This document shows positions 29,591 to 50,932 of a DNA stretch of 64,000 nt, piece after piece. Source of the DNA: Kordia aestuariivivens. GTDB lineage: Bacteria; Bacteroidota; Bacteroidia; Flavobacteriales; Flavobacteriaceae. The stretch spans positions 124,001 through 188,000 of the forward strand of contig NZ_JACGWS010000009.1 of the NCBI RefSeq assembly GCF_014397005.1, read 5' to 3'. The notes beneath the pieces are model-generated. The model was not told the origin of the DNA. It did not search any database and saw only the letters and a list, made by a program, of their open reading frames with translations. Numbering within the stretch: the first letter of the stretch is position 1; each line of letters opens with the position of its first letter. The translations under genes were made by a program, and so were the position numbers.

Positions 29591-29619
29591 GACGCTTATA
29601 CAATATTTTCAACGCTTAT
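29591..29619 (+). promoter_or_regulatory. Direct-repeat operator, copy A (LytTR-like)
   Basis: GACGCTTAT (29591-29599) and AACGCTTAT (29611-29619) start exactly 20 bp apart. A TAnnTTTG box (29652) follows 40 bp after the second unit. This is one of four such sites in the window, with copies B 30575, C 34462 and D 43093. Confidence 0.65.
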
Positions 29620-29651
29620 ACATTTGATCCTTATTTTATTCAAAAAAAAAC

Positions 29652-29659
29652 TATTTTTG
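29652..29659 (+). promoter_or_regulatory. Promoter -7 box of the lipoprotein gene
   Basis: TATTTTTG fits TAnnTTTG. It implies transcription from about 29666, which excludes the open frame's earlier start codon at 29624 and supports the ATG at 29732. Confidence 0.5.
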
Positions 29660-29731
29660 ACTTTTAAAACAGGAAAAATTGTGGTTGCAAACATTCCTTT
29701 AAACACTTTAATATCAATAAAACGTATCTTA

Positions 29732-30421
29732 ATGAATTACAAAAACATTTTAAAAACAGCCCTATTATGTTGTTTCATATCATTTACAAGTTGTAGTAGT
29801 GATGATGAAAATGACACCAATACTCCCGAATTCAATAGTGATGATTATCTCTATTACATTTCAGGAAAAATAAACGGTGAGCCTTTTCTATTCGGACAAA
29901 GAGCAGATGCAACTGTTTTAGATTATTCAGAGCCAGGGTTTGGAAACTCAATAACAACACCATGCGCTTTTAACCCTAACAATGGAGGCTTAAATTATGC
30001 CGCTGGTATATACCCAAGTTTAGATAACGAAGCACGACCAGAAATTTATTTTGATTTTGTTCGTTTTTATTTATGTGATCCAAATTTTAACAACAATGCC
30101 GCAGGATCATTCAACGACTCTTTTCCAGTAAGAATGTATGACTTAGCGACAAGTAACAACAGTATATCTGGTACTACAGGAGCTGTAGCTATGTTTTATG
30201 CCCCAGATGCTACAAACAATATGACGCGATATGGTTCATTAAATACAGATCAATCGGGTAATTCTTTTGAAATAACCTCTTCTACTAATACTAGTAATTT
30301 TGCACAAAGGAAGCAATTCATAGAAGGCAATTTTTCATTCAAATTATATAATGATCTAGACAGTTCAGATATTGTAGAAATCACAGAAGGTCAATTCAAA
30401 ATAGATGTGTTTTTTGATTAA
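29732..30421 (+). CDS. Hypothetical lipoprotein under operator A, 229 aa
   Basis: The start at 29732 gives a normal lipoprotein signal (MNYKNILKTALLCCFISFTSC, lipobox before Cys) followed by SSDDENDT, a usual Bacteroidota surface-lipoprotein tether. The body (YYISGKINGEPFLFGQ, GGLNYAAGIYPSL, IYFDFVRFYLCDP) is beta-rich and not assigned to a known family. It stands alone between REP-like elements but shares its upstream operator with the secretion operon and the giant RHS gene, so it may be an accessory factor or substrate of that system. This last point is inference. Confidence 0.75.
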   Translation: MNYKNILKTALLCCFISFTSCSSDDENDTNTPEFNSDDYLYYISGKINGEPFLFGQRADATVLDYSEPGFGNSITTPCAFNPNNGGLNYAAGIYPSLDNEARPEIYFDFVRFYLCDPNFNNNAAGSFNDSFPVRMYDLATSNNSISGTTGAVAMFYAPDATNNMTRYGSLNTDQSGNSFEITSSTNTSNFAQRKQFIEGNFSFKLYNDLDSSDIVEITEGQFKIDVFFD

Positions 30422-30574: not shown

Positions 30575-30603
30575 GACGCTTATACAATATTTTCGACGCT
30601 TAC
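30575..30603 (+). promoter_or_regulatory. Direct-repeat operator, copy B
   Basis: GACGCTTAT (30575-30583) and GACGCTTAC (30595-30603), 20 bp apart, stand about 80 bp before the first gene of the secretion operon. The 19 bases from CGACGCTTAT onward are almost identical to copy A. A -7-like TATCGTAA lies near 30632 but is a weak match. Confidence 0.6.
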
Positions 30604-30682: not shown

Positions 30683-31282
30683 ATGAAATTTATACTCACT
30701 GCATTTTTCATCCTTATCTTATTACCTCAGAAACGAATTATTAATGATCAAAACTTTGATTACGAATTCTATATTTCTCAGGAGAAGATTAAAAAACCAA
30801 AGTCTGACAGAATTTATTATTGGTATCGATCTGGAGAAATTCACCAATCTACTTCGGCAATAGGCGGCGATATATTAGTGGATAATTATCAAAAATTTTA
30901 CAAAACAAAACAACTTGCCGAAAAAGGAAATTTCAATGATGGTTTGAAACATGGAACTTGGCAAAATTGGTTTGAAAACGGAACGCTTCAGCAAGTAAAA
31001 GAATGGAAAAAAGGAATTCCTCATGGAAAATTTGCCCTTTATACTACTGATGGAAACAAAATTGAAGAAGGAAGGTATAAAAACGGGCAAAAACAGGGGA
31101 CTTGGATTGATTATATCAAAAAAGATACGCTCCACTATTCATCTGGAAAAATTATTCCTAAAAAAGTAAAAGATACCCTAAAACGTGAACCGTTTTTAAA
31201 ACGAATCTTTAAAAGGAAAAAGAAGAAATCTTCCGAAAATAAAGATTCTAAAAAAGTCAATAAAGATGTTGAAACAACTTAA
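30683..31282 (+). CDS. MORN-repeat exported protein, first gene of the secretion operon
   Basis: The 199-aa protein starts with a hydrophobic signal/anchor (MKFILTAFFILILLPQ). It contains MORN/YwqK-like repeats (KGNFNDGLKHGTWQNWFENG, KEWKKGIPHGKFALYTTDG, GRYKNGQKQGTWIDY) and ends in a strongly basic tail (FLKRIFKRKKKKSSENKDSKK). The MORN repeats form a beta-sheet surface for protein contacts; despite the YwqK 'antitoxin' name in databases there is no sign of a toxin partner here. It overlaps the next gene by 17 bases and belongs to the same transcript as the pseudopilins. Its exact part in the machine is unknown. Confidence 0.75.
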   Translation: MKFILTAFFILILLPQKRIINDQNFDYEFYISQEKIKKPKSDRIYYWYRSGEIHQSTSAIGGDILVDNYQKFYKTKQLAEKGNFNDGLKHGTWQNWFENGTLQQVKEWKKGIPHGKFALYTTDGNKIEEGRYKNGQKQGTWIDYIKKDTLHYSSGKIIPKKVKDTLKREPFLKRIFKRKKKKSSENKDSKKVNKDVETT

Positions 31283-32495
31283 AGCATCTTCGCTATTACA
31301 CGCAGTTTTTGCCTGTTTACTAATTGCTCTTGTATGTTTTGGGATGCTTTTACTAGCGAGTTATACTTCTTTATTTCAGCATAGAGCACTTGAAAAAACA
31401 CAGTTGCAACTCACGAATGACTCAGCGCTAGAATGGCAACTTTCAAAAGATATTTTTAATCAAGAAGAAGTACAGTCAATTTCAGTTTTCAATGATGATA
31501 TTGAAACTAGAACTAAAACTCTAGATTGGGGGTTTTATAAAATAATTAACACAAAAACCTATCACAATCAAGATACGATTCGTAAATCAGTATTGGTGGG
31601 AGAAATTACTTCCGATAAAACCGCGCTATATATTACTGATTATGACAAAATTCAAAGTGTTGCTGGAAGCGTAAAAGTTATTGGAGCTATGAGTATCCCA
31701 AAGGCAAGGTTCAACGAGAAAAATATGCAGGGTGAAACTACAGCAATTTATATCAACGGAATCACAACGCCTTCGGAAGATAAATTGCCAAACCTTAAGG
31801 ACAGAAATTTAAAATTTTCAAACAGCTATGATGATGAATTTAGCATAGATAACATTTCAAACAAAATACTATACATACATTCTTTTGATAAAAAAACAGC
31901 GCTTCTAAAGATTCCTGATAATCGTTTTTTGATTGGTAAAAAACTGAAAGGAAACATTATTATTGAAAAATTAGGCACGTTGGTCATTACCAAAAATATG
32001 GAATTAGAAGATGTCATTATAAAAGCCGATGAAATAAAGATTGAAAGCGGGTTTACAGGGAATCTTCAAATCATTGCTAAAAACACGGTTTATATTGAAG
32101 AAGGTGTGCAATTGAAATATCCCTCAAGTATTCTTATTGAAAAACCAAAAGACGCTGCTACGATTACAATTGAAAAAAACAGTGTCATCATGGGCGGAAT
32201 TGTTTTGCAAAATTCGAATAGAAAAACTACTGAAAAATCCTTGATTAAAATTGAAGAAGAAGCATTGATTGTTGGTGTTGTTTATTGTGCAGGAACACTA
32301 GAATTGCATGGGAAAATCTACGGAAGTGTGTATACAGATCGATTGATGACGCACGTAGAAAATGCCGAATATAAAAACCTATTGATGAATGTTGAAATTG
32401 ATCGTTCCAAACTTCCTGAAACATTTGTAGGCATTTCGTTATTTGATTCGAAAACAGAAAAGAAAACTGCGTATGAAGTCGTTAAAGAACTATAA
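31266..32495 (+). CDS. Pseudopilin-like protein with bactofilin-like beta-helix (possible GspK/PilX role)
   Basis: The N-terminus LKQLKASSLLHAVFACLLIA followed by more hydrophobic residues looks like a prepilin signal (compare KKLQASSLMESVIATAIIAI in the next gene), but the conserved Glu at +5 is replaced by His, as minor tip pseudopilins of the GspK type also lack it. The 409-aa length is large for a pseudopilin, like GspK. The C-terminal half is a repetitive beta-helix (IEKLGTLVITKNMELEDVII, VYIEEGVQLKYPSSILIEKP, IKIEEEALIVGVVYCAGTLE), recalling bactofilin. The gene lies at the head of a set of three pseudopilin genes with overlaps on both sides. The tip role is inference. Confidence 0.65.
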   Translation: MLKQLKASSLLHAVFACLLIALVCFGMLLLASYTSLFQHRALEKTQLQLTNDSALEWQLSKDIFNQEEVQSISVFNDDIETRTKTLDWGFYKIINTKTYHNQDTIRKSVLVGEITSDKTALYITDYDKIQSVAGSVKVIGAMSIPKARFNEKNMQGETTAIYINGITTPSEDKLPNLKDRNLKFSNSYDDEFSIDNISNKILYIHSFDKKTALLKIPDNRFLIGKKLKGNIIIEKLGTLVITKNMELEDVIIKADEIKIESGFTGNLQIIAKNTVYIEEGVQLKYPSSILIEKPKDAATITIEKNSVIMGGIVLQNSNRKTTEKSLIKIEEEALIVGVVYCAGTLELHGKIYGSVYTDRLMTHVENAEYKNLLMNVEIDRSKLPETFVGISLFDSKTEKKTAYEVVKEL

Positions 32496-32838
32496 AAAAT
32501 TGCAAGCTTCATCATTGATGGAATCTGTGATTGCGACAGCAATCATCGCTATTTGTGTGATCATGGCAACCATTGTTTTTGTAAATGTATTTAAAACAGG
32601 ACATTCAACCGCATTTTTTGAAGGTTCGCAAGAAATTCAGACGATCATCCATAAGTTAAAAGAACAACAACAAGTGACGGACGATATGTATACATATCCA
32701 AATTTCACGATTGAACAAAAGGTAACAAATTATGAAAGTTTACCAAATTTAAAACATGTACAGCTAGCACTAACAGTAAATCAGAAACGAAAAATAGTTC
32801 ATTGTTTAATTAATGTAAAAGAAAATGATGTTGAGTAA
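32473..32838 (+). CDS. Minor pseudopilin, 121 aa
   Basis: The prepilin-type N-terminus KKLQASSLMESVIATAIIAI, with Glu at the +5-type position, is followed by a membrane-spanning helix and a short soluble domain. The ATG at 32473 is preferred over 32443 because it leaves a short basic leader. The gene overlaps both neighbours (23 and 14 bases). It resembles GspI/GspH-type minor pseudopilins by size and place. Confidence 0.78.
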   Translation: MKSLKNYKKLQASSLMESVIATAIIAICVIMATIVFVNVFKTGHSTAFFEGSQEIQTIIHKLKEQQQVTDDMYTYPNFTIEQKVTNYESLPNLKHVQLALTVNQKRKIVHCLINVKENDVE

Positions 32839-33307
32839 AAAATACAAAGCATTTACGCTTACAGAAACCATTTTTGGATTGATTATTTCAAGCGTATTGA
32901 TTGGTGTGATTTATACGGTATTTACCACATTCAATAAGCAATTTGTCATGTTTCAACAACAACAATTACAAAGCAATGCGTATGTTTTGTTTGATGCAAC
33001 ATTTAAGCAAGACTTATATAAAGCAAATGCCATTAGTTACAAAAGTGACCAACTCATTCTTGAGAATTATAAAGAAAAAACGAAAATATATACAGTTCAA
33101 AAAAATAGCATCATAAGAAATTTTGACGAGCATTCGGAAGTCATACTGACTAATGTACTTTCATTTGGGTATAAAAAACAGGATGCGTACCATATTATAA
33201 ATTTACAAGTACGTATCTATGATGAAACCATCAATTTGACATATCAAAAAAAGGAGAATCCAGCGAATGTTATAAATGAAGCTTTTATAGATGAAATTAG
33301 ATATTAA
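32825..33307 (+). CDS. Minor pseudopilin, GspJ-like, 160 aa
   Basis: The canonical type III signal KAFTLTETIFGLIISSVLIG (cleavage after Ala, Phe+1, Glu+5) leads to a membrane helix and a ~130-residue domain. Size and order suggest the GspJ position. A second ATG follows directly at 32828. It overlaps the GspF gene by 17 bases. Confidence 0.8.
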   Translation: MMLSKKYKAFTLTETIFGLIISSVLIGVIYTVFTTFNKQFVMFQQQQLQSNAYVLFDATFKQDLYKANAISYKSDQLILENYKEKTKIYTVQKNSIIRNFDEHSEVILTNVLSFGYKKQDAYHIINLQVRIYDETINLTYQKKENPANVINEAFIDEIRY

Positions 33308-34415
33308 AAAACATAAAGTTACGGCGACAGTTACCTCAAAAAAGGTAGTGAAATCGAAAGGTTTTAACTTTGATTTCTTTACAAAATTCTCCAATAAAGA
33401 CAAGGAAGCATTTTATAGAGAATTTGCCGTATTGATAAAATCTGGTGTAGATTTTAATCAATCGTTACAGCTATTAGCTGCGCAGCAAAAATCTGAAAAG
33501 ATTAAAAATATTCTAATAACTATAAATGAAGATGTAGTTTCTGGAAGTACGCTTTTTGATGCATTACAAAAACACAACGCATTTTCGCCCTATGAATATT
33601 ACAGTATCAAAATTGGCGAAGAAACTCGAAAACTAGCAGAAGTACTCACACAATTGCAACGCTTTTTTGCACGTAAAATAAAAATGAAACGCCAAATTGT
33701 TTCTGTAATGACGTATCCTGCATTTGTATTGGGAATTACGTTTATTGTATTGTATTTTATGTTGAATTACATCGTGCCAATGTTTACTTCTGTATTCAAG
33801 CAATTTGGAGGTGAATTGCCCGCAATTACCAAATTTGTGATTCGACTATCCGAAAACTTCAATACAATTATGTTCATAATAGTACTTGTTGTAATTACTG
33901 GGACTACGTTTCACAAACTAAACAAAAACAACAATCGTTATCGTGATATTTTAGGAAGAATTGTATTGAAAATCCCATTTATTGGCACTTTTCTAAAAAA
34001 GATATATGTAACACAGTTTTGCCAATCGCTAAGTTTATTATTATCTGCAAAAACACCTTTGATTATATCTTTAGATTTAACAAAAGAAATGATCACGTTT
34101 TATCCAATGCAAAAAGCGATTCAACAATTGAAGCTTGACATATTAAAAGGAAATACGCTTTCAAATAGTTTAGAAAAACATACCATTTTCCCCAAAAAAC
34201 TGGTTTCATTAGTTGGTATTGGCGAAAAAACCAACGAACTCGACACCATGTTTAGTAAACTCAACGATCAATACAATGATGAAATAGAACACACCACTAA
34301 AATGATTGGAACAATCTTAGAACCATTAATCATCATTATCATCGGAGGATTGGTTGGATTTATCTTAATTTCTATGTACACGCCGATGTTTGACTTGAGT
34401 AAAGTGATTGGTTAA
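33291..34415 (+). CDS. Type II secretion / type IV pilus inner-membrane platform protein (GspF/PilC)
   Basis: The 374-aa protein has two copies of the T2SSF domain (EFAVLIKSGVDFNQSLQLLA and FCQSLSLLLSAKTPLIISLD) and three membrane helices (about residues 145-165, 190-210, 345-365). GspF/PilC sits in the inner membrane and connects the GspE motor to pseudopilus growth. It closes the first half of the operon; operator C and a promoter follow before GspG. Confidence 0.92.
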   Translation: MKLDIKKHKVTATVTSKKVVKSKGFNFDFFTKFSNKDKEAFYREFAVLIKSGVDFNQSLQLLAAQQKSEKIKNILITINEDVVSGSTLFDALQKHNAFSPYEYYSIKIGEETRKLAEVLTQLQRFFARKIKMKRQIVSVMTYPAFVLGITFIVLYFMLNYIVPMFTSVFKQFGGELPAITKFVIRLSENFNTIMFIIVLVVITGTTFHKLNKNNNRYRDILGRIVLKIPFIGTFLKKIYVTQFCQSLSLLLSAKTPLIISLDLTKEMITFYPMQKAIQQLKLDILKGNTLSNSLEKHTIFPKKLVSLVGIGEKTNELDTMFSKLNDQYNDEIEHTTKMIGTILEPLIIIIIGGLVGFILISMYTPMFDLSKVIG

Positions 34416-34461
34416 AATGTACTACTTTTCTTCAAATTAGGTGTTTTTTTTGAAAAAACTT

Positions 34462-34490
34462 AACGCTTATTAACTATTTACGACGCTTGT
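34462..34490 (+). promoter_or_regulatory. Direct-repeat operator, copy C, inside the secretion locus
   Basis: AACGCTTAT (34462-34470) and GACGCTTGT (34482-34490) are 20 bp apart, upstream of the major pseudopilin gene. TATACTTTAG starts 39 bp after the ACGCTT of the second unit, the same distance and same box as at copy D. Confidence 0.7.
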
Positions 34491-34521
34491 TAATTCATTC
34501 CCTATAAAACTACATTTTTTA

Positions 34522-34531
34522 TATACTTTAG
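34522..34531 (+). promoter_or_regulatory. Promoter box before the GspG-like gene
   Basis: TATACTTTAG is identical to the box at 43153-43162 and has the same 39-bp distance from its operator. The transcription start would fall about 20 bases before the ATG at 34559. Confidence 0.65.
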
Positions 34532-34558
34532 TTTCAGAATAATAAAAATAGAATACTC

Positions 34559-34987
34559 ATGAAGAAGAAAAACCTTGCTCAAAAAAAGCAATCTTTATGG
34601 CTAAAAGGATATTCCCTAACAGAAATTCTTATTGTGTTGTGCATCATCGGAATCTTGATTTATTTGGTATTACCCAATCAAACACAAGCCGTTGTACAAG
34701 CAAGAGCCATTGAAGCAAAAACGACACTCAACTCGTTATATTCGTATCAGCGAAACTACTTTTTTACACACGCTAAATATTCTTCAAGTTTTGATGATAT
34801 CGGATTTGAAAGAGAACTCACCATTGATAAAGGTGGACAAGCAGTGTATCGTATAGAAATCATTGAAGCTTCTATTAATAGTTTCAAAGCCCGCGCAGAA
34901 TCTATTCAAGACTTTGATGGAGACGGAAACTACAATGCCTGGGAGATTGATCATAAACGAAATTTAAAAGAAGTCGTAAAAGACTAA
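34559..34987 (+). CDS. Major pseudopilin, GspG-like, 142 aa
   Basis: A basic leader ends in KG and the mature start is YSLTEILIVLCIIGILIYLV, with Glu+5 and the long hydrophobic helix, the classical type IV pilin-like signal. The body (ARAIEAKTTLNSLYSYQRNY, FFTHAKYSS) has the GspG/PilE-type layout. It ends with DFDGDGNYNAWEIDHKRN, a DxDGDG loop like a calcium site, which in GspG stabilises the pseudopilus. It is the first gene after operator C and so may be made in larger amounts than the minor pseudopilins. Confidence 0.88.
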   Translation: MKKKNLAQKKQSLWLKGYSLTEILIVLCIIGILIYLVLPNQTQAVVQARAIEAKTTLNSLYSYQRNYFFTHAKYSSSFDDIGFERELTIDKGGQAVYRIEIIEASINSFKARAESIQDFDGDGNYNAWEIDHKRNLKEVVKD

Positions 34988-34991
34988 TCTT

Positions 34992-35480
34992 GTGAAAACA
35001 CTCGTAACCATCATATTAGTACTAGTATTTGCGGTTATTATTTTTCAAGATTTCAAATACAGAGCCATTCATGCTATTACCATTATTGGTATTGGTATTG
35101 TCGCTACCATCTTAAACTACCTAGAACCAACACTTACCTTTTTTGACATGCTGCAAAGCATTAGTTTTTTAATCATTACAAGTATTGCATTCATGATATA
35201 TCAAACAATAAAACAGAAAACATTTCAAAACCCTATTGATCAATCTATAGGTTTGGGTGACCTATTATTTTTCATCGTCATTACACCATTATTTCAAGTA
35301 CATCAATACATATTATTTTTCATTGTGGGCTTACTGATTTCAGCAGGACTCTTTATGATTTCAAAATCAATTTTAAAAGAACAAACCATTCCATTAGCAG
35401 GGTATTTATCCTTTTTACTAATAATCTGTTTTGGTTTAAAAATCTTGAACATTGTAAATCCTTTTTTCATTGAATTTTAA
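34992..35480 (+). CDS. Prepilin peptidase (A24 family, short form)
   Basis: The 162-aa polytopic protein has the two aspartates of the A24 aspartic peptidases: Asp20 in IIFQDFKYR and Asp90 in the GLGDLL motif (GxGD). It lacks the N-terminal methyltransferase domain of PilD/GspO, so it is of the TadV/CpaA-like short type. It should cut the leaders of the four pseudopilins nearby. Translation begins at GTG 34992. It overlaps the GspE gene by 11 bases. Confidence 0.85.
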   Translation: MKTLVTIILVLVFAVIIFQDFKYRAIHAITIIGIGIVATILNYLEPTLTFFDMLQSISFLIITSIAFMIYQTIKQKTFQNPIDQSIGLGDLLFFIVITPLFQVHQYILFFIVGLLISAGLFMISKSILKEQTIPLAGYLSFLLIICFGLKILNIVNPFFIEF

Positions 35481-36891
35481 CAGTCAACATATCGAAATTT
35501 CTATAGAACAGCAACAAATTATCAATGCTGAACTTGCTAATCATTACAGGGTCATTCCTTTTGATGAAGATGCGAACAGTATTTCTTTTTACACTGATAA
35601 AAGTGAAGCAGCTTCTGTGAAACTTATACAAGAATTACAATTGTTATTGGATAAAAAAATTACGATTGCTGCCGCAGATACAGAAGTCATTCAGAAAGCA
35701 TTAGCAACGTATTACCGAACTGGCGATCGTGATACAAAAACTTTACATGAATTGAATCAATTGAGTACTGACTTTTTAGATGAATTGATTCAGGAAGCGA
35801 AGCTTATTAGAGCAAGTGATATTCACATTGAAATTTTTAAAGAAGAAGCACGCGTCCGATTGAGAATAGATGGTTTATTGATTGAAAAGTATAAAGTTCA
35901 AACGGAGAATTACTTAGAACTCATCAACAAAATAAAAATTCGTTCCAACTTAGATATCACCGAAAAACGATTGCCGCAAGATGGTCGAATCAGTTTTGAA
36001 GCTTTTGACATTAGGGTTTCTATTTTGCCAACACATTATGGTGAAAAAGTTGTGATGCGTCTATTAGGTCGTGATGCTTCACATCTAAATTTAAATGCTT
36101 TGGGAATGGATACAGAAGAGCAAGAAATTTATAAAACTGCTGTCAAAAAAACCAATGGAATCATTTTAATTAGTGGTCCAACTGGTTCTGGAAAAACCAC
36201 TACGCTATATGCAACTTTGAAACATCTCAATCATTCCAAAACAAACATTGTTACAGTTGAAGATCCTATTGAATATACATTAAAAGGCATCAATCAAGTG
36301 CAACTAAAAGAAGATATTGGACTCACCTTTACGTCCGCATTACGTTCTTTTTTACGACAAGATCCAGACATTATTATGTTGGGAGAAATCAGAGATGCAC
36401 AAACGGCTCAAATGGCAATTAGAGCTTCGCTCACAGGACATTTGGTACTTTCTACCATACATACGAATTCAGCATTAGGAACCATTTCTCGATTGATTGA
36501 CATGGGCGTTCCTGCATTTCTCATCGCGGAAACGCTCAATATTTCCATTGCGCAACGCCTAGTACGTAAACTTTGCGCGCACTGTAAAAAAGAAACAATA
36601 CTTCATGTGGAAGACTTACCAAAATCATTACGAACTAATAACGTAATAACGCATCAGTATACTGCAAAAGGTTGTGATTGTTGTTATTATACAGGATATA
36701 AAGACAGAACTGCAATCTATGAAATGATTGCCATTACGGAAGACATTGCTGAAGTAATTAAGCAAGAACGCATACAAGAAGCCAAAAAACATATTGATCA
36801 AGAGAAAAGTTTGGCATACAAAGCATTACAATTATTCAAAGATGGCATTACCTCATTAGAAGAAGTATATCCAATTTTATTAAACTCTTAA
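35470..36891 (+). CDS. Type II secretion / pilus assembly ATPase (GspE/PilB)
   Basis: This is the motor ATPase of the machine. It has Walker A SGPTGSGKTTT (residues 235-245), the Asp box VTVEDPIEYTL, Walker B IIMLGEIRDAQTAQMAIRAS, and the His box TGHLVLSTIHTNSALGT. A tetracysteine zinc motif (CAHC ... CDCC, about 370-405) marks the GspE/PilB subfamily rather than PilT or TadA. At 473 aa the N-terminal N1/N2 domain is shortened. The start is TTG at 35470, overlapping the peptidase gene. Confidence 0.95.
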   Translation: MNFNSQHIEISIEQQQIINAELANHYRVIPFDEDANSISFYTDKSEAASVKLIQELQLLLDKKITIAAADTEVIQKALATYYRTGDRDTKTLHELNQLSTDFLDELIQEAKLIRASDIHIEIFKEEARVRLRIDGLLIEKYKVQTENYLELINKIKIRSNLDITEKRLPQDGRISFEAFDIRVSILPTHYGEKVVMRLLGRDASHLNLNALGMDTEEQEIYKTAVKKTNGIILISGPTGSGKTTTLYATLKHLNHSKTNIVTVEDPIEYTLKGINQVQLKEDIGLTFTSALRSFLRQDPDIIMLGEIRDAQTAQMAIRASLTGHLVLSTIHTNSALGTISRLIDMGVPAFLIAETLNISIAQRLVRKLCAHCKKETILHVEDLPKSLRTNNVITHQYTAKGCDCCYYTGYKDRTAIYEMIAITEDIAEVIKQERIQEAKKHIDQEKSLAYKALQLFKDGITSLEEVYPILLNS

Positions 36892-36894
36892 GAC

Positions 36895-38811
36895 ATGTAT
36901 AAGCACTATATATTCATACTTCTATTTTTATTTTCTGGATGGACATTTGCCCAAGAAAGCAATGATTATCGTGAAAAATTAGACGCATTGTCAACAGAAA
37001 TCAACGCATATAATAAAACGATGCAAGTTGAAATTTCGGGGATTGCGTTATACGATTTTATTTCTGCAATTGCAGACGAACATAAACTAAGTGTTGATGT
37101 AGATACAGCATTAGATCAGTTAATTTCTAGCAATTTCTACGATGTTCCTGTGAAAGATGTATTGCTATTTTTGATTGGAAAACATGATTTGGAAATGGAC
37201 GTAAAAGGTAAAATATTGGTCATCCGAAAAAAAGAAATTATTCCAGAAATTCCAAAGATAATTCCACTAAAAAAAATTGATGTTAGTTATAATAAAGAGA
37301 ATGATTTCCTTTCTGTAAAACTGAAAAAAGATTCTATTGCAAAAGTTGCACAAGCAATTACAGATGCTTCTCAGAAGAATATTATTTTGTCGCCTTCTAT
37401 CAAAAAACAAACCATTTCGGCATACATACTCAATCGCCCATTTGATCAAGTATTGGAAATGATGGCAAAGTCAAACAATTTGATGATTACCAAAGATGAA
37501 AATGATTTTTACTACATCGATAAGAGTGATATTATCATAAAAGACAATCCAACTACAAAAAAATCAGGGCGAAAGAAAAGTACTCAAAAGAAAAATGGTA
37601 CGCTTACCAATAATGGGGAATATTCACTTGCCATTGATAAGAAAGGTTTTTTATCCGTAAATGCTTTTGAAGCAGACGTGCTGAGTATTTTGGTTGAAGC
37701 TGCTGAGAAATTGAATATCAACTATTTCATGTATGACAAACCTGAAAAAGTAACCACAACTTTACTTGCCACAGGAATTACATTTGAAGAATTGTTGAGA
37801 AATGTATTAAAAGGAAAAGAATATACATATAAAAAGGTTGACGAAGTATTTTTAATAGGAAAACATGATACTGACGGCATCCGAAAAACAATTTTAATTC
37901 AGATGGAAAACAGAACGATTGAGTCTGTAAAAGCTACGTTTCCAAAAGCACTGGTGCAAAAAATGGATATTGTTGAATTTGTTGAACTTAATGGTTTTGT
38001 CGTGACTGGTTCGGACATTCAAGTCAGAGCAATGCGCGAATTTTTAAGAGAAATAGACAAAGTAGTTCCCAATATTGAAATTGAAGTTATGATTGTACAA
38101 TATCAAAAAGGATATGAAATACAAACAGGTTTTCAGGCTGGATTGGATGATAACAAACGAACGACTTCTGGCGTCTTATTTCCAACTACGGATGTGCAAG
38201 CAAATGCAAATTCAGTAAACGGATTAATTGATGCGTTCAATGGACTTGGTATTGTGAATCTCGGAAAAGTGACGGAACGTTTTTACCTAAGCCTAAAAAT
38301 GCTAGAAAACAACTCCTACATCAAAGTAGAATCAACACCAAAGTTAGTCACCTTAAATGGTCATGAAGCCACAACTTCTATTGGAGAAACAAGTTATTAT
38401 TTTGAACAGCAAAATCAATTAGTGCCAACTGGCGGCATCAATAATAACATCTTACAATCAGGGACTTGGAAATCAACAGAAGCCAACTTAAGTGTTCGTA
38501 TCAAACCATTTGTATCTAAAGACGAACACGTAACACTTGAAATTTCTGTGGAACAAAGTTCATTTTTAGGAAGAGCAGGCGAAAATGCACCGCCAGGAAA
38601 AGCTACTCGAAAGTTTGAATCCATGATTCGTGTTAAGAATAATGAAATGATTTTACTTGGCGGATTGGACGAATTGGAGAATGAAAACTCAGGCACAGGA
38701 ACACCTTTCTTTTCAAGAATTCCTGTGATTAAATGGTTTTTTAGTAGCCGAAAAAAGAAGAAAGAAAAGTCAAAACTTCACATTTTAATCAAACCAACTG
38801 TTACCTATTAA
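36895..38811 (+). CDS. Secretin (GspD/PilQ family)
   Basis: A signal peptide (MYKHYIFILLFLFSGWTFAQ) is followed by N0/N1-type domains (ISGIALYDFISAIADEHKL, ISAYILNRPFDQVLEMMAKS), then the secretin pore-forming domain from about residue 390 (PNIEIEVMIVQYQKGYEIQT ... YIKVESTPKLVTLNGHEATT ... MIRVKNNEMILLGGLDELEN ... FFSRIPVIKWFF). It forms the outer-membrane gate through which the substrate leaves. Length (638 aa) is typical. The sequence differs from proteobacterial GspD but the core motifs are clear. Confidence 0.93.
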   Translation: MYKHYIFILLFLFSGWTFAQESNDYREKLDALSTEINAYNKTMQVEISGIALYDFISAIADEHKLSVDVDTALDQLISSNFYDVPVKDVLLFLIGKHDLEMDVKGKILVIRKKEIIPEIPKIIPLKKIDVSYNKENDFLSVKLKKDSIAKVAQAITDASQKNIILSPSIKKQTISAYILNRPFDQVLEMMAKSNNLMITKDENDFYYIDKSDIIIKDNPTTKKSGRKKSTQKKNGTLTNNGEYSLAIDKKGFLSVNAFEADVLSILVEAAEKLNINYFMYDKPEKVTTTLLATGITFEELLRNVLKGKEYTYKKVDEVFLIGKHDTDGIRKTILIQMENRTIESVKATFPKALVQKMDIVEFVELNGFVVTGSDIQVRAMREFLREIDKVVPNIEIEVMIVQYQKGYEIQTGFQAGLDDNKRTTSGVLFPTTDVQANANSVNGLIDAFNGLGIVNLGKVTERFYLSLKMLENNSYIKVESTPKLVTLNGHEATTSIGETSYYFEQQNQLVPTGGINNNILQSGTWKSTEANLSVRIKPFVSKDEHVTLEISVEQSSFLGRAGENAPPGKATRKFESMIRVKNNEMILLGGLDELENENSGTGTPFFSRIPVIKWFFSSRKKKKEKSKLHILIKPTVTY

Positions 38812-38813
38812 TC

Positions 38814-40004
38814 ATGTTTGAAAAATTAACACATAAAATTCCGTTACGAAGCACTTTTCAAGTGGTAGGCATTCATTTTCTTCATGAAGATGAAGTACAG
38901 TTTTGTGTATTGACAATTCACAAGAAACAGAATGAGTTTTCGGTTGGGAAACGTTTTGAATCAAATAAAATTGAAGCTATTTTTAAAGAAATTGAATCAA
39001 AATACCCTGTGTTGCTGCATTTTTCAGGCGTTGGAATTTTGAATAAAAGTGTTGAACGTGTTGCGAATTACAAACAGAAATTACTCTTTAAATCAAACCC
39101 TGATGATTTCTATTTTTATGAATTACATCAAGAACAAACAATTTTTGTATCGATGTGTCGAAAAAAGATCATTGATGCATATTTGGAACAATTTTCAGTT
39201 AAAAAATATCATGTATTAGACATTGCAATTGGTCCTTTTGTGAATTATGTATTGCGTCCATTCTTATCGAATCAAACAATAATATCAAACCTTTCAAGCA
39301 TTACTTTATCACAAAATGATAGTATTGATTTTGAAGTGTTAGATGAAGTAAATGACAACACATTATATCAAATTGAAGACTTAATGTTTACTCATAAAGA
39401 AATTGCACTTTTTGCAATGATTTTGCAATACCACATTCAAGAAGAAGCTATACAACTTGAAGCGCCATTTTTACAAAAAAATAAAACAGATTTCACTTAT
39501 TATAAAGCAACAAAACTTGCTGGGATTACAGGTGTTTTCATGCTGTTATTAGGAATTTTATTGGGGCACTTTTTATTAAATCAATATCAAACAAAAGTTG
39601 CAAATGAACAAGCAATTGTTGCGGAAGTGAAAGAAATACAGGAAAATATACAATTGCTTACAAAACAAAAGTATGACAAGGAAGAAATTATTGCGACTTC
39701 TGGGTTATTCAATCCGAAGTTTTTGACATCCTATTTTTATGATATTGGAAATTCGGTGGATAAACATACAAAGCTTTCTAGCATGGCTATTACGCCTGTT
39801 ACAAAGAAGATGCGAGCCGATACAGAAGTAGCATTTTTTAAAAATCAAATTCATGTAGAAGGACTTGCGAACAACGATACCGATTTTGAACAATGGATTG
39901 CCCGACTGAATGAAAAATTGTGGGTAAAAAAGACTGAAATCGAAGCGTATATAACAGTAAGACGATCATCACAAAAATCATTTTTAATACATATATATTT
40001 CTAA
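38814..40004 (+). CDS. GspL / PilM-PilN-like inner-membrane protein
   Basis: The cytoplasmic N-terminal ~225 residues look like a divergent actin-like PilM/GspL domain (YYVLDIAIGPFVNYVLRPFL-type segment). A membrane helix (LAGITGVFMLLLGILLGHFL, about 235-255) and a PilN-like periplasmic part with coiled coil follow. In T2SS, GspL links the ATPase to the periplasmic parts. Assignment is from architecture and position between GspD and a GspM-like gene, since sequence similarity is weak to the eye. Confidence 0.65.
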   Translation: MFEKLTHKIPLRSTFQVVGIHFLHEDEVQFCVLTIHKKQNEFSVGKRFESNKIEAIFKEIESKYPVLLHFSGVGILNKSVERVANYKQKLLFKSNPDDFYFYELHQEQTIFVSMCRKKIIDAYLEQFSVKKYHVLDIAIGPFVNYVLRPFLSNQTIISNLSSITLSQNDSIDFEVLDEVNDNTLYQIEDLMFTHKEIALFAMILQYHIQEEAIQLEAPFLQKNKTDFTYYKATKLAGITGVFMLLLGILLGHFLLNQYQTKVANEQAIVAEVKEIQENIQLLTKQKYDKEEIIATSGLFNPKFLTSYFYDIGNSVDKHTKLSSMAITPVTKKMRADTEVAFFKNQIHVEGLANNDTDFEQWIARLNEKLWVKKTEIEAYITVRRSSQKSFLIHIYF

Positions 40005-40522
40005 TGATAGCACAACTTTCATACAAACGTCGTTTTTTCTTGGTGCTGATCGTCATGATTATGTTGATTCTTGTCTTATACAAAAAAACATACAGTCCAA
40101 TTTTTCAATTGCGAAGCGAGCTTCAAGTATCTGAAAAATTAATGACAAATTCAGAAGCTTCACTTGAAGAAATTCAGGCATTACAACACGAATTGAACGG
40201 TTTGGATATGATTATTGGGAATTCGGAAAACCATGCCTTCATACAACAAAAAATATTGCGTTTTATTACAAATAGATCGTTGAATATTAGCGTAATTTCA
40301 ATGGAAGACACACATGTTTTTGAAGAGAAAATATTCACTGTTTTTACAAATAAAATTGTGCTAAAAGGAACCTATGAAAATTTATTAAAACTAATGTATA
40401 TGATGGAAAAAGAATTTGCCGCTTCAAAAATTGCAAGTGCAAAATTTGTTTCCAAGAAAGATTACAACACCAATAAAACAGAATTATTACTAGAACTATA
40501 TTTTCAAAATTATGGCAAATAA
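40004..40522 (+). CDS. GspM / PilO-like protein
   Basis: The 172-aa protein has one N-terminal helix (FFLVLIVMIMLILVLYKKTY), a coiled coil (LQVSEKLMTNSEASLEEIQA) and a ferredoxin-like periplasmic domain (FTNKIVLKGTYENLLKLMYM), the layout of GspM/PilO. It overlaps the GspL-like gene by one base, as these partners usually do. Confidence 0.7.
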   Translation: MIAQLSYKRRFFLVLIVMIMLILVLYKKTYSPIFQLRSELQVSEKLMTNSEASLEEIQALQHELNGLDMIIGNSENHAFIQQKILRFITNRSLNISVISMEDTHVFEEKIFTVFTNKIVLKGTYENLLKLMYMMEKEFAASKIASAKFVSKKDYNTNKTELLLELYFQNYGK

Positions 40523-41474
40523 CAATAAACTCTTAGGCTTAATGAGTCTTCTATTTTTTATATCGTGCGATGATATTTTAGAAGAAAACATTTCAAATGA
40601 TTTAGTTACACCAATTACACCGACTTCTGAAAGTGTAATTACAAATAATGTGATCAACTTTTCATGGAATGCTTCGGATGGAGTTGACGATTACCGACTG
40701 CAACTATTGGATAACAATCAAAGTAATTTGATTATACTCGATTCGTTGGTTTCGACAACATCTTTTCAACATCCATTAGATCCTGGAAACTATAAATGGC
40801 GTGTGCGTGGAGAAAATTTCGCCTATGAAACGGCGTACTCCTTTCCTATTTCATTTAGCGTAATTGCTTCTTCTGATTTGACCAATCAGAGTGTGATTTT
40901 GAATACACCAACGGCTAATTTATACACAAACTCTACCAATATATTATGTACATGGAATGAGTTGCCATTTGCAGATTCGTATTCATTTGAATTGATTAAA
41001 AACCTCAACGGACAAACTACCGAGGTACAGCAAACAGGAATTACAGCAACAAGTTACAGTGTAAATACAAGTGTTTTTGATGTAGATGCGGAATATATCT
41101 GGAAAGTAAAAGCTGTGAATGCAACAACGGAAACAACCTTTACATCGCGTTCTTTGTTTTTAGATCGTGAAGCGCCAAATCAACCTTCCTTAGTATCTCC
41201 TGCAGATGATGAAATTATTACGACTATAGATATCGATTTCAATTGGACACTTGGTCAAGATAACGGAAATGTGCAATCGGAAATAGAAAGCATTTTAGAG
41301 ATTTCGCAAGACGCAAACTTCAACAGTATTATAGAAACAATTACAGTAAATAATGGAAATTCTCAGCAAGTTTCTATTGAAAATGTTGGCACGTATTATT
41401 GGCGTGTTCGTGCAAAAGATGCAGCGCAAAATGTAAGTTCCAATAGTATTTCAAGATCATTTATAACTCAATAA
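40512..41474 (+). CDS. Lipoprotein with fibronectin-III-like domains
   Basis: The start NNNKLLGLMSLLFFISCDD is a lipoprotein signal. Three FnIII-like units follow (VINFSWNASDGVDDYRLQLL, NILCTWNELPFADSYSFELI, DIDFNWTLGQDNGN), each ending with YKWRVRG/YIWKVKA/YYWRVRA strands. In T2SS loci a small lipoprotein (GspS) pilots the secretin, but this protein is larger and of another fold. It may instead hold the substrate or attach the machine to the outer membrane. It overlaps the GspM-like gene by 11 bases. Confidence 0.8.
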   Translation: MANNNKLLGLMSLLFFISCDDILEENISNDLVTPITPTSESVITNNVINFSWNASDGVDDYRLQLLDNNQSNLIILDSLVSTTSFQHPLDPGNYKWRVRGENFAYETAYSFPISFSVIASSDLTNQSVILNTPTANLYTNSTNILCTWNELPFADSYSFELIKNLNGQTTEVQQTGITATSYSVNTSVFDVDAEYIWKVKAVNATTETTFTSRSLFLDREAPNQPSLVSPADDEIITTIDIDFNWTLGQDNGNVQSEIESILEISQDANFNSIIETITVNNGNSQQVSIENVGTYYWRVRAKDAAQNVSSNSISRSFITQ

Positions 41475-41484
41475 TTTTCACAGT

Positions 41485-41964
41485 TTGAAAACAAAAAAGT
41501 ATGTAAACATTGTATTAATTCTCCTAACTATTTTCATTTGGGGTGCAATTGGTTATACGTATTTCTACAAGAAAGAAACGTCAAAAACGAATACATATGC
41601 TCCAAAAATGACAACAAACGTAGATTTTACGATTCGGAAAGATACATTTGAATTGATCGCGATTAAAAACCCTTTTTCAAGCACGATGAGAGTTCCTAGA
41701 AAAGCTTCTCAAACAATAAAAAAAAATTCAAGAAAAAAAACAAACATTCCTGTAGTTGTAAAATGGCCTTCAATTTCATATCACGGATATGTGGTTCAAG
41801 AAGGAAGTTCTAAAAAGTTGGGCATTTTAAAAGTCAATGGGAAAATTACAAGAAAGAAAACACAAGATATCATTTTGAATGAATTTAAAATTAAAAACAT
41901 ATACGAAGACTCTATTCAACTAACATACAAAAACACACTCAAAACATTTCAAAAACAAAAATAA
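41485..41964 (+). CDS. GspC / PilP-like protein
   Basis: The 159-aa protein has an N-terminal membrane helix (IVLILLTIFIWGAIGYTYFY), a flexible basic linker and a C-terminal HR-like beta domain (WPSISYHGYVVQEGSSKKLG ... ILKVNG ... DSIQLTYKN). This is the build of GspC and PilP, which reach through the periplasm to the secretin. The start appears to be TTG at 41485. Position in the operon agrees. Confidence 0.7.
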   Translation: MKTKKYVNIVLILLTIFIWGAIGYTYFYKKETSKTNTYAPKMTTNVDFTIRKDTFELIAIKNPFSSTMRVPRKASQTIKKNSRKKTNIPVVVKWPSISYHGYVVQEGSSKKLGILKVNGKITRKKTQDIILNEFKIKNIYEDSIQLTYKNTLKTFQKQK

Positions 41965-41971
41965 TAAACAA

Positions 41972-42469
41972 ATGAAAACATTAAAGTTTCTTCCCTTCGT
42001 CAATCTCTGCATCTTACTTGCAGGAATCATTTTTATGGTCATACAATTAAATGATGATCAAAAAAAATACGGTTACGTAGACAATATTGTGTTGTTCAAT
42101 CAATTCAATATGGCAAAAGATTTACATTCGATGGGTTTACCTCAGTTAAACGCGCAAAAAAAGAAAGTAGATAGCCTGTATCAATTGTTGCAAACTCAAA
42201 AAGATCCAAAATTGATCAAAGAATTTCAGCAACGTGTATACGTTCAAAACAATCATCTTCAAAAAATGGACACTGAACTCAAGCAGCAAATAAATAGTAA
42301 AGCTTGGGAACGATTGAACGGTTATTTAGAAGAATTTGGTGAGCAGCAAAAAGTGCATCTTATTTTTGGGATTCAAGGTGCTGGAAACATTATGTATGCT
42401 GACGAAGCATTTGATTTAACCCAAGAAGCAATTGAGTTTGCAAACGGAAAATATGAAGGTAATAAATAA
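41972..42469 (+). CDS. OmpH/Skp-like periplasmic protein
   Basis: A signal anchor (FVNLCILLAGIIFMVIQLND) is followed by GYVDNIVLFNQFNMAKDL, helical hairpin arms, and VHLIFGIQGAGNIMYADEAF, an OmpH/Skp pattern. Skp-type proteins hold unfolded outer-membrane or exported proteins. A dedicated copy inside a secretion operon suggests a periplasmic chaperone for the substrate, possibly the giant RHS proteins downstream. Confidence 0.8.
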   Translation: MKTLKFLPFVNLCILLAGIIFMVIQLNDDQKKYGYVDNIVLFNQFNMAKDLHSMGLPQLNAQKKKVDSLYQLLQTQKDPKLIKEFQQRVYVQNNHLQKMDTELKQQINSKAWERLNGYLEEFGEQQKVHLIFGIQGAGNIMYADEAFDLTQEAIEFANGKYEGNK

Positions 42470-42476
42470 AGGATCT

Positions 42477-43064
42477 ATGAAAAAGTTAATTTTAATAATT
42501 GGCGTAAGTCTATTTTGTTTCACATCGTGTAAGAACGGCAAAAAAGAACGTGTGATCACGGAAGATTATAAGTTTTTCAACTTGGCGGTTGATGGATGGA
42601 AATCGAAAAAAATCAATCAATACATAAACGATATAAATTATACCGCGACAGAAGTTCCGTTACAGTATTATATCTTAAAAGATACTCAAGATTTTGAGAC
42701 TGAAGCGGTCGATTCTATTTTCAAACTCCACGAAAACGAGCGTGTACTCGAAGTTGAATTTCATCACAATGAAGAAAAAGACTTATTGCAAAAAGAGTTT
42801 ACTAATTTGGAGTATGACAAAGCTGTCGAATATATGGCATTTAAAATTCAAAATGATTTTAAGGTGATTACCAGTACAAATGATACCATTATATGTTCAG
42901 GTGTTTTATTTGAACGAAACTTTAAAGTGGCTCCTTTTAAAAGAGCCTTACTCTATTTTGGTAATATCAATCCGAATGAAGAAATTCAATTGGTGTATAA
43001 TGATCAACTATTTGGAAGTGGATTGATGAAGTTTAACTTCAAAGCGAAACCATTAAAATTGTAA
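42477..43064 (+). CDS. Hypothetical lipoprotein, last gene of the secretion operon, 195 aa
   Basis: Start ATG 42477 gives KKLILIIGVSLFCFTSCKNG, a lipoprotein signal; an earlier frame start at 42432 would hide it. The body (EDYKFFNLAVDGWKSKKINQ, MKFNFKAKPLKL end) is not recognised. It follows the OmpH-like gene after 7 bases. It may be an outer-membrane-attached part of the machine. Confidence 0.72.
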   Translation: MKKLILIIGVSLFCFTSCKNGKKERVITEDYKFFNLAVDGWKSKKINQYINDINYTATEVPLQYYILKDTQDFETEAVDSIFKLHENERVLEVEFHHNEEKDLLQKEFTNLEYDKAVEYMAFKIQNDFKVITSTNDTIICSGVLFERNFKVAPFKRALLYFGNINPNEEIQLVYNDQLFGSGLMKFNFKAKPLKL

Positions 43065-43092: not shown

Positions 43093-43121
43093 AACGCTTA
43101 TACAATATATTCGACGCTTAT
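43093..43121 (+). promoter_or_regulatory. Direct-repeat operator, copy D, before the giant RHS gene
   Basis: AACGCTTAT (43093-43101) and GACGCTTAT (43113-43121) are 20 bp apart. The repeat pair with ATACAATATATTC between them is very close to copy A, and TATACTTTAG starts 39 bp after the second ACGCTT. Confidence 0.7.
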
Positions 43122-43343: not shown

Positions 43344-46300
43344 ATGATGATACAACAGATTAGAACTGGAAAATTTTCTAAGGTGCTGTCTTGCTATTTA
43401 GCAATACAGTTGGTATTAACAACCATTCAGCCTACACAATTATTTGCGCTTACGGGCGGACCTTCACAACCTGAATTTACTGCTTTTACACCTATCGGAA
43501 CTTCGGATATGGTAAATATAAATTCTGGGAGTTTCAATTACAACATTCCTATTATGGATGTGGGTGGGTATCCACTCAACTTAGCGTATGATGCCGGAAT
43601 TACCATGGATCAAGAAGCTTCTTGGGTTGGACTGGGTTGGAACCTAAACGTAGGACAAATAAACCGTAACGTCCGTGGAATTCCAGATGATTTCAAAGGC
43701 GATATAATGACCTATGAAAACAGCATGAAAAAGAACAAAACGGTTGGGATGACATTATCTATTAATGGTCAGGCTTCAGGAACTGAATTTGGATTTTCAG
43801 GAAATGCTAGTGCAACATTACTCCATAACAATTATGACGGTTTCAGTTTTACACCTTCTTTTGGGGTTTCTTATAAGTTTTCAACAGGGACTAGTGTTGG
43901 AATGAATTTGTCTCCGTCTGTTGAGAATGGAGCTTCTTTGACACCAACTGCATCGCAAAGCTTTGATGGGGAAAATCAAAAAACTGAAAAAACTACTGTT
44001 TCTGGAATAAGTCACAGTATTGGAATTGGAACAGCTTTTAACAGTCGACAAGGATTAAGCTCTTTTAACATAAACACTTCAACATCTGGAAGGGTTATGA
44101 AAAATCAATATGGCCTTTGGAAATATGTCGGAAGGTCTTCTAATAGTGGAAATTTAGGAAGTTTATCATTCATTGACAACACATTCACACCCGCTAAACG
44201 AACTGCCTATCATAACGAAAATTATACATTTAGAGCTTCCTTAGGTTTCCAAGTTGCTGCATTTAGTTTTGAAGGAGGTGCTTCCGCTTTTTATTCTGTA
44301 CAAAGACTCAAAAATCAGGTGCAACATGAAAAAGCATACGGGTATGAATTTACTAGGAATGCCACACATAATGATGTCTTAGATTTTAATAGAGAAAACG
44401 AGCGTATGGTTTCCAAAAACACCACTACGTTACCAATAGTCAACTACACACACGATATCTATCACATACAAGGACAAGGAATTGCAGGGCAATTTCGTCC
44501 TTTTAAAAGTCAATCAGGCTATGTATATAACCAACGTGTAGAAGACTCTGGAGATAGTTTTAGCCTTGGGGCAGAAATAGAAGGTGGTTGGGGATTTCGA
44601 AATGGAATTGACATTCACTATTCACCAACACGAAGTCATACAGGTGTTTGGGATACACCAGGGCGTTACAGATTTCAGTCATCAAATACAAATGATATCG
44701 ACTACGAAGAAACCTATTTTAAAACGATTGGTGATTTAGGCATTGATAAAGACCAACAGGAATTGTATGAATCTGTATTATCTGCAGAAAAACCAATGTC
44801 ATTGGTGTTGACTCCTGAAGGTAAAGCTTATGGCAAGCAAGCGATGAATGTTTTTAATGTAAAAGAATATAATATAGATAATACCATTGCCGATAATTCA
44901 CAAGTAACCATTACCGAACCAATTAAAAGAAAACATCGCGAACAAAGAAATCAAGCCATTTTAAAAGTAAACAAAAAAGAAGCCTTAGTAGATCCTTTTA
45001 TCAATGCGCATACTAATTTAAAACCACATCATACCAATGGGATTAAAATTGTACAGCCAAGTGGTGCGACCTATGTATATGGAGAAGCAGCAGTAAATCA
45101 CTCTAAAGAAGAAGTGACATTTGCAGCTGATGGAATTCCAACCTTGGAAGACGGAACGATTGCTGTAAATGGTCAAGATCATCCCGGGAATACAAGTGGT
45201 ATTGATAATTATTTCAATAAAATTACAACGCCTGATTATGCACACACGTATTTACTAACTACAGTGCTTTCTAATGATTATGAAGACCTTACAGGTGATG
45301 GTGCTACCGATGATGATTTAGGTGCCTACACCAAAATGCATTACAACAATTTTATAAATGATACCGATATTAGTGGAGCTAAGATTACCTCTGTAGTTGA
45401 TGATTATAAATGGAGAGTTCCTTATGCCGCTAATGATGCTTCTTACAATCCAGGATTGTATACCAAAGAGAATGACCAAAAAGGAAGTTATGTTCGTGGA
45501 GAAAAAGAGTTGAAATATGTAACCATGATTGAGACGAAAACGCATGTGGCAATTTTCGACTTTAGTCCTCGTGAAGATGGACTAGATGCCGATGGAAGAA
45601 ATGCGTCTCTTAAGGTTGATGCTATCAGACTTTACTCAAAACCCGAAGCAAAAGCTGCAAATCTATTAGACGATGATGATTCTAACAATCAATTTGTTGC
45701 ACCTATCAAAACGGCTCATTTTACCTATAACTATTCCTTAATGCCAAACACGCCAAATAGTGATGCTTTAGAAACAGGAAAACTTACCCTAGAAAGAGTA
45801 CACTTTACCTATCGCAACTCAAACATGGGAAAATATACACCGTACATTTTTAATTATGATAATATGAATCCAGACTATCAAATAAAATCGTATGATGTTT
45901 GGGGAAATTACAAGCCTTTATTTGAAGAAGGTGTTACAAAAGTTGATACTGACAATGATGGAATTAACGATGATGTGACACTTCCAACAGGCAATATAAA
46001 TACAAGTTGTGAAGTACTATCGGATATCACAGCGCAGGAATTCCCATTTGTGCAACAAAATGATAAAGAATTGCAAGATTTGTATACAGCCGCTTGGACA
46101 TTATCCTCTGTTGATCTTCCTTCTGGTGGACGAATAGAATTGGAATATGAATCAGATGACTATCAATATGTACAAGACAAACCTGCTATGGAAATGTTTA
46201 AGGTTGTGGGTGTTAGTGACATTGCTCCTGAAAGCTTTGGTGACCTTACTACTAACTTATATACTAACGCACAACACACACGATTTTTAACCGTTGAGTT

Positions 46301-49487: not shown

Positions 49488-49513
49488 AAATATTTATTTA
49501 AAAAAATAACATT

Positions 49514-50850: not shown

Positions 50851-50932
50851 CATCGTAGAACCATTTCAAACCTCAGAAAATCTCTGATAAAAAATAGTTC
50901 CATTTGATATCCAACACATAAAAAATTAACAC

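Follow-up and report, generated by a model that had tools for sequence, protein, structure and literature searches.

A 64,000-nucleotide stretch of the 5.46-Mb genome of Kordia aestuariivivens (positions 124001–188000 of contig 46, 239 kb; hereafter the window, that is, the whole stretch of DNA analysed) carries a 13-gene operon resembling those of type II secretion systems (T2SS) and type IVa pili (T4aP) (30683–41964), followed by genes for an OmpH protein and a lipoprotein (41972–43064) and then by an RHS module (43344–62436). We consider it about two in three probable that this locus is one functional unit, in which a T2SS-like exporter assembled from type IV filament parts would export its main linked cargo, a two-part RHS toxin; on this reading, giant RHS toxin-like proteins may leave the cell through the machine. 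The operon encodes, in order, a MORN_2-like protein, a large minor pilin, two minor pilins, GspF, GspG, a prepilin peptidase, GspE, GspD, GspL, GspM, an FN3-like lipoprotein and GspC, and the RHS module a partner of 2047 amino acids (aa), a 195-aa piece, a LolA3-family protein, an RHS giant of 3673 aa and a weak Imm42 match. This machine gene set and the adjoining 2047-aa and 3673-aa proteins had been proposed in an earlier sequence-only reading and were all found in place. Among the matches listed, the closest named relatives of the secretin came from Kordia periserrulae (83%) and K. zhangzhouensis (81%).

The association between machine and RHS genes was analysed in 246 genomes of the order and 395 genomes of the phylum, with 44 secretin-positive genomes overall. 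The secretin was present in 23 order genomes, the RHS partner in 16 and both in 14 (Fisher P=4e-15), with corresponding values of 32, 25 and 14 for the phylum genomes (P=6e-11), all co-occurrence P values being computed without correction for relatedness. RHS cores (E<=0.001) occurred in 144 of the 395 phylum genomes, covering 32 of 32 secretin-positive genomes (one of which, G439, scored below the curated cut-off) as compared to 112 of 363 secretin-negative ones (P=8e-16). Within the family to which the window belongs, the values were 11 of 11 secretin-positive genomes and 10 of at least 30 negatives, counting the listed negatives alone (P=1e-4). Taken over all secretin-positive genomes, RHS cores at the same threshold were found in 43 of 44, the exception being G054, an 86% complete genome whose machine is flanked, at a contig end, by a partner-like fragment of 79 aa.

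The two sets of genes were also physically linked. In 34 of the 44 genomes an RHS core, partner or DUF6443 match lay no more than 40 kb from the secretin, and in 28 no more than 15 kb, as against 4.1 expected within 40 kb from RHS density, a figure that ignores contig ends (P=4e-30). Since the six DUF6443 positions added for this count were chosen for their nearness to the secretin, RHS cores were also counted alone, by eye from the match positions, giving 30 of 44 within 40 kb (P=1e-23 with the same per-genome densities); the cores counted are the strongest matches, and weaker RHS matches exist beyond them. At least one linked case was found in 11 of 14 families, according to a family list entered by hand. 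In G541, G372, G369, G315 and G258 the RHS genes lie inside the machine cluster, and in G349 on both sides of it. Such mixing recurs among several families distant from one another, the order being GspE, RHS, GspD, RHS, GspC in G541 and GspG, RHS, large minor pilin in G369 and G372. Gene clustering over 41 neighbourhoods returned one large RHS group, merged with the FN3-like lipoprotein by single linkage and covering 35 genomes. In a recount by a model, RHS or partner proteins were present in 30 of the 41 neighbourhoods and the next non-machine-like groups in 10, this set omitting G000, G002, G026 and the Kordia genome itself as well as second contigs or loci of G128, G150, G231 and G391. Similarly, in the 80 named secretin loci used for conservation counts (the best 80 of 567), a module gene lay within 10 kb in 56 and the partner or RHS itself in 48, some of the 24 loci lacking a module gene having flanks cut by contig ends. 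Widespread occurrence of the operon without RHS genes, which the sequence-only reading had named as a point that would count against it, was thus not observed, given the 43 of 44 genomes with RHS cores and the 34 of 44 with a linked RHS element.

Further evidence for a common unit came from the promoter regions. The direct repeat ACGCTTA-N13-ACGCTTA was found in three copies in the window as against 0 expected from shuffles, all on the + strand: 5' of the machine operon (30576–30602), 5' of the RHS module (43094–43120) and 5' of a gene (29624–30421; repeat at 29592–29618) encoding a 265-aa lipoprotein-like protein, a possible third regulon member. By eye, this protein has a C-S-S-D-D start. 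That machine and RHS module stand under the same operator, as suggested earlier, is borne out by the identical repeat in both promoter regions, and the ACGCTTA repeats look like the footprint of a common regulator. In a scan of 227 loci the exact pattern matched in three, namely the window's own region (L033), K. zhangzhouensis (three sites) and K. periserrulae (two sites), and in none beyond Kordia. In both relatives one site is positioned at the machine promoter, 5' of the MORN gene (L089:3601 in K. zhangzhouensis and L168:3667 in K. periserrulae), and one directly before the partner (L089:16196 and L168:16150), with differing spacer letters; one K. zhangzhouensis site precedes GspG. Scans for sigma-70 promoters and terminators showed no excess above shuffles.

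The type of RHS protein found near the machine was assessed by a simple hydropathy test on 47 machine-neighbour RHS or partner proteins of at least 900 aa with their start inside the fetched piece. A hydrophobic, Sec-signal-like N-terminal segment was present in 43 of the 47, and none contained LPKGGG, a motif which we take to be SpvB/Tc-like. Among giant RHS proteins of secretin-negative genomes, three of nine showed a signal-like start and four of nine LPKGGG; these counts cover all nine loci with long frames out of ten inspected (L245 and L251 being without a reliable start) and were made without a filter asking for LPKGGG or an RHS tip motif. Because of this difference in signal-like starts (43/47 versus 3/9), the machine is taken to go mainly with a presumably periplasm-bound kind of RHS protein, which also exists without the machine. 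In the secretin-negative loci L245–L249, the LPKGGG-type RHS protein (split across two frames in L245) adjoins a gene of 2209–2843 aa, by eye a Tc A–B/C-like arrangement.

Several observations weigh against an exporter with RHS cargo. Ten of the 44 secretin loci have no RHS on the same contig at a distance of up to 40 kb, some of them being on short contigs or near contig ends; G191, G260 and G439, however, are among the ten despite at least 15 kb on both sides or a long contig on one side (the nearest RHS in G191 being 142 kb from the secretin), and G256 has none nearby on a 30-kb contig. Two giant RHS proteins of secretin-negative genomes (L243 and L244) likewise begin with a signal-like segment. 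Of the 25 phylum genomes that carry the partner, 11 lack this secretin, so that either there are other ways out or the association is less tight. A secretin may also be too narrow to let a folded RHS cocoon through. Gene neighbourhood by itself cannot show transport, and in the accessible text of a type IV filament survey based on guilt by association, no further proteins were systematically tied to a system type (PMC6668835). Moreover, a homologous system in Cytophaga is reported, in the sections available, to act on cellulose use and outer-membrane proteins (PMC5553014). Two stricter versions of the link were rejected: the partner is not an obligate companion of the machine, given those 11 phylum genomes and two of the 16 partner-positive order genomes (one 76% complete, one with a weak match), and DUF6443 is not a marker of machine-linked RHS, as it occurs in 52 of the 246 order genomes and is frequent in a family (f5) accounting for 0 of the 23 secretin matches. 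The sequence-only reading thus pointed the right way, but its description of the machine as dedicated to RHS was too strong, both because of the partners found without a secretin and because of the Cytophaga phenotype (PMC5553014, available sections).

The alternative that survives best, although we consider it unlikely, is a general-purpose T2SS-like secretion of many periplasmic proteins such as enzymes, adhesins and RHS proteins, the RHS genes being neighbours because both are accessory and horizontally mobile. It would account for the effect of the Cytophaga homologue on cellulose use and the outer-membrane protein profile, as given in the accessible text (PMC5553014), and for an integrase-like family (identified by eye) that accompanies the machine in 10 of the 41 neighbourhoods, but leaves unexplained why no other non-machine neighbour found recurs as often as RHS or partner proteins (30 of 41), why several families have RHS genes interspersed among those of the machine and why machine and RHS module have an operator in common.

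The machine genes, all on the + strand, were examined in the 80 secretin loci and in an alignment (A1) of 15 secretin loci from the order-genome survey. The MORN_2-repeat protein (30683–31282; E=2.9e-5, under the curated cut-off) is of a type present in 58 of 80 loci and opening the machine operon in many relatives. The large minor pilin (31266–32495; 69/80) shows, by eye, a pilin-like N-terminus without Glu5, together with a bactofilin-like region (ComGE-like N-terminus E=3.7e-4 and Bactofilin E=0.003, both under cut-off), and is a tip candidate that we assume to be GspK-like. It is followed by a minor pilin (32443–32838; 69/80) with an (A)SSLME prepilin-like motif and a hydrophobic helix, both seen by eye, a ComGF-like minor pilin (32825–33307; N_methyl E=0.0012 and ComGF E=1.7e-8, under cut-offs), the GspF/PilC platform protein (33291–34415; T2SSF E=3.9e-48; 74/80), a GspG/PilA-like major pseudopilin (34559–34987; PilA_Myxo E=1e-12 and GspG E=1.2e-6, both under cut-off), a short GspO/A24 prepilin peptidase (34992–35480; Peptidase_A24 E=3.4e-4, under cut-off), the GspE/PilB assembly ATPase with an MshEN domain (35470–36891; T2SSE E=1e-123; 79/80) and the secretin GspD (36895–38811; Secretin E=1e-34; 80/80), which is the only Secretin (PF00263) match in the genome. 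A second secretin form of 712–742 aa, with likeness mainly in the C-terminal half, was observed in five Flavobacteriaceae genomes (L021–L025), four of which have a DUF6443 RHS gene no farther than 17 kb away.

The proteins corresponding to L, M and C gave no Pfam match, and profile searches of PDB with the GspL and GspC alignments gave none up to E 1. The 396-aa GspL (38814–40004; 80/80) was assigned from its predicted fold, in which an actin-like cytoplasmic domain, a long helix and a periplasmic domain are fused in one protein. The GspM/PilO-like protein (40004–40522; 78/80), which has a transmembrane (TM) helix and no relevant domain match, and the GspC/PilP-like protein (41485–41964; 76/80) are putative assignments from gene order and size, that of GspC being additionally based on a conserved TM segment and the DPF and WP-x-I-x-Y-x-G pattern. 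Between them lies the FN3-like lipoprotein of 320 aa (40512–41474; 77/80), found in this position in 75 of 76 loci where both GspM and GspC were found and carrying a conserved C-D-D-I-L-E-E motif, with C19, D21 and E24 invariant across 40 sequences; it is a fixed component of the machine.

As for the type of machine, the T2SS core genes D, E, F, G and O stand together, with equivalog scores under the curated cut-offs, and the predicted GspL fold has the T2SS-type trait of cytoplasmic actin-like and periplasmic domains in a single protein. No PilT was found in the genome, where the sole PilT-family match (TIGR01420, E<=0.001) is the machine GspE. A single PilT-family match was found in 17 of 26 secretin-positive genomes, the window's included, corresponding to the machine GspE in 16, while that of G251 is 27 kb from the secretin and was taken as GspE. 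The other nine of the 26 genomes belong to other families; they encode a PilT-like protein at a separate locus (three over the curated cut-off and six just under it) and PilB-like proteins at further sites. A GspE/PilB tree placed the machine GspE apart from those PilB, which lie on one side of a branch (value of 92 in the Shimodaira–Hasegawa-like approximate likelihood ratio test, SH-aLRT), with supports of 80–85 around the placement of Escherichia coli GspE in what is a quick-method tree with one E. coli GspE and long branches. A classical T4aP, with PilB plus PilT and separate PilM and PilN, was rejected, there being no PilT in the genome and a fused GspL. The filament is probably non-retracting, because no PilT was found, and the machine likely works like a T2SS, though it may not be one by descent. 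The Bacteroidetes system was reported in 2019 to cluster with T4aP, and a T4aP-derived secretion system independent of T2SS was raised there as a possibility, as far as the accessible text goes (PMC6668835). This clustering, the similar scores of T4aP and T2SS models (e.g. 130 bits for GspD and 129 for PilQ) and the ComGE/ComGF-like minor pilins would also suit a type IV pilus or competence pseudopilus serving DNA uptake or adhesion, with RHS leaving by another route, which we nevertheless regard as very improbable in view of the missing PilT, the predicted T2SS-like fusion of GspL and the nine genomes in which a separate PilT-like protein is encoded at another locus besides the machine.

The RHS module, also on the + strand, was compared with an alignment (A2) of 11 partner loci from the order-genome survey. 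The partner (43344–49487) has a signal-like N-terminus by eye, and its residues 544–1560 are predicted to resemble the TcB shell; a profile of the 11 partner sequences gave no match to solved Tc proteins up to E 0.1. Next come a small protein of 195 aa (49514–50101) with a signal-like start and, by eye, C-terminal YD/RHS-like repeats, homologous to part of larger proteins 3' of the partner in relatives, and a LolA3-family periplasmic protein (50101–50850; NF053579 E=4e-45, over cut-off). The RHS giant (50933–61954) comprises a signal-like N-terminus (by eye), DUF6443 (E=1e-6), TSP3 repeats, an RHS core (Rhs_assc_core E=1.6e-10) and a C-terminal stretch, the toxin tip, without a Pfam match. Its gene is followed by that of a weak Imm42-like immunity protein candidate (61954–62436; 22.8 bits, cut-off 27.2) and by an orphan RHS core tip with a different C-terminus (63443–64000), the first of four 3' of the main gene in an array extending beyond the window. 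The four orphan tips have nearly identical first residues and differing C-termini, and each is followed by a 150–240-aa gene that may encode immunity. RHS core, variable tip, candidate immunity gene (the weak Imm42 match) and orphan tips together make up the layout of a polymorphic RHS toxin. Past the window in the same genome (L242, 630–1204), fragments recognised by eye as resembling a REP-associated tyrosine transposase separate the immunity candidate from the first orphan tip, and an 89-aa helix-turn-helix protein 5' of the locus (28890–29159) resembles, by eye, an IS3-type transposase subunit. Elsewhere, an RHS core match lies inside an extremely long open frame of 23293 aa (G150:C98, near 68950).

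Between machine and RHS module lie genes for an OmpH/Skp-like periplasmic chaperone (41972–42469, + strand; OmpH E=9e-7, under the curated cut-off) and a 210-aa lipoprotein (42432–43064, + strand). Both are rarer than the machine genes, being present in 33 and 36 of the 80 loci, respectively. The region 5' of 29 partner open reading frames (ORFs; either strand, several being fragments) contained the lipoprotein in 22 cases, OmpH in 17 and both in 16, so that OmpH and the 210-aa lipoprotein tend to travel with the RHS partner. The sequence-only reading had counted a MORN protein, two lipoproteins and an OmpH-like chaperone as additions to the secretion operon; all are present, and their distribution across loci therefore splits them into a machine part (the 320-aa lipoprotein and usually MORN) and a cargo part (OmpH and the 210-aa lipoprotein). 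In partner loci without secretin (L208–L218), OmpH or the lipoprotein is retained in some cases. A long gene often adjoins the partner in these loci, with an end resembling, by eye, the tail of type IX secretion system (T9SS) substrates in L213, L214 and L216, and such neighbours are possibly an alternative exit.

For the window's RHS giants, export by T9SS through an unrecognised signal, the adjoining machine doing something else, was the least credible explanation and was rejected: the genome has many T9SS substrates (98 Por_Secre_tail matches) and one paper, in its accessible part, put T9SS forward as a hypothetical route for TANFOR toxins (PMC7073777), but no T9SS sorting domain was found in the giants using NCBIfam, in agreement with the sequence-only reading, none of the 98 matches falls within the window, and the toxin tips vary at the C-terminus, the place where a T9SS signal would sit.

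Under the favoured reading of exporter plus RHS cargo, the partner and the RHS giant would be made with Sec signals, judging from their N-termini, and enter the periplasm, where OmpH, the co-travelling lipoprotein and LolA3 could keep or guide them. The two proteins may then assemble into a TcB–TcC-like two-part shell around the variable toxin tip, the resemblance of the partner being a predicted one. GspE would drive the growth of a short pseudopilus through the GspF–L–M–C platform, the filament probably not being built for retraction, and the cargo would pass through the secretin GspD and so reach the cell surface or the medium. One regulator could act on both promoters through the operator found at each, and the toxin tip might be exchanged with the orphan tips of the downstream array, whose adjoining genes would confer immunity. 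To our knowledge, it is not settled by what path very large RHS proteins bearing ordinary signal peptides get across the Gram-negative outer membrane, and no substrate class is named for the ‘T2SS of Bacteroidetes’ in the literature covered; pairing that machine with RHS makes both questions testable. If true, the T2SS-like family would gain a role in toxin delivery, for which T9SS and the type VI secretion system (T6SS) are usually considered in this phylum.

A phylum-wide link between machine and RHS was not found in the open literature covered (titles, abstract starts and passages among the hits listed; all bioRxiv preprints and most subscription papers fall outside this scope). The suggestion of a new delivery system in the sequence-only reading calls for qualification, as it was anticipated in part in the accessible text of two papers (PMC5808330, PMC6668835). 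More tentatively, and at somewhat short of even odds, the machine may represent a distinct Bacteroidota secretion system which arose from type IV filaments apart from the classical T2SS and has Sec-exported two-part RHS cocoon toxins as its ancestral and its main cargo across the phylum. The ‘T2SS of Bacteroidetes’ of Denise et al. (2019) has the Cytophaga system as its representative and no cargo named in the parts available (PMC6668835). That system, the putative T2SS of Cytophaga hutchinsonii (chu_3191–3202), has a similar component set with divergent L, M and C and is needed for normal cellulose use besides affecting outer-membrane proteins; related clusters are listed in F. johnsoniae, F. 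psychrophilum and others, and the available text ties the system to cellulose use and makes no mention of RHS (PMC5553014). Partial T2SS or type IV pilus parts were also described in Flavobacterium, unlinked to RHS in the passages accessible (PMC5395568, PMC5524665). Among polymorphic RHS toxins, the ‘T2SS/Sec’ class is characterized by a signal peptide, varied tips and immunity genes, as is the module described here, but in the accessible text ‘T2SS’ denotes default export by Sec and the table gives no signature neighbour genes (PMC3482391).

The closest precedent is a 35-kb cluster of F. psychrophilum CC-ST10 (FPSM_02418–02439) reported in 2018, in which T2S genes, an OmpH/Skp chaperone and two proteins with ABC-toxin domains occur together and for which a dedicated translocation role was suggested; in the sections available, this account comprises a few sentences on one species, without a genome survey, shared operator or fold (PMC5808330). 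With regard to the cargo, the machine-linked proteins differ from the BC cocoon of Tc/ABC toxins (PDB 4igl and 6l7i) in their signal-like N-termini, the 3673-aa length of the RHS protein and the absence of LPKGGG (0/47), while sharing with it a predicted TcB-like partner shell and a TcC-like RHS giant with a C-terminal tip.

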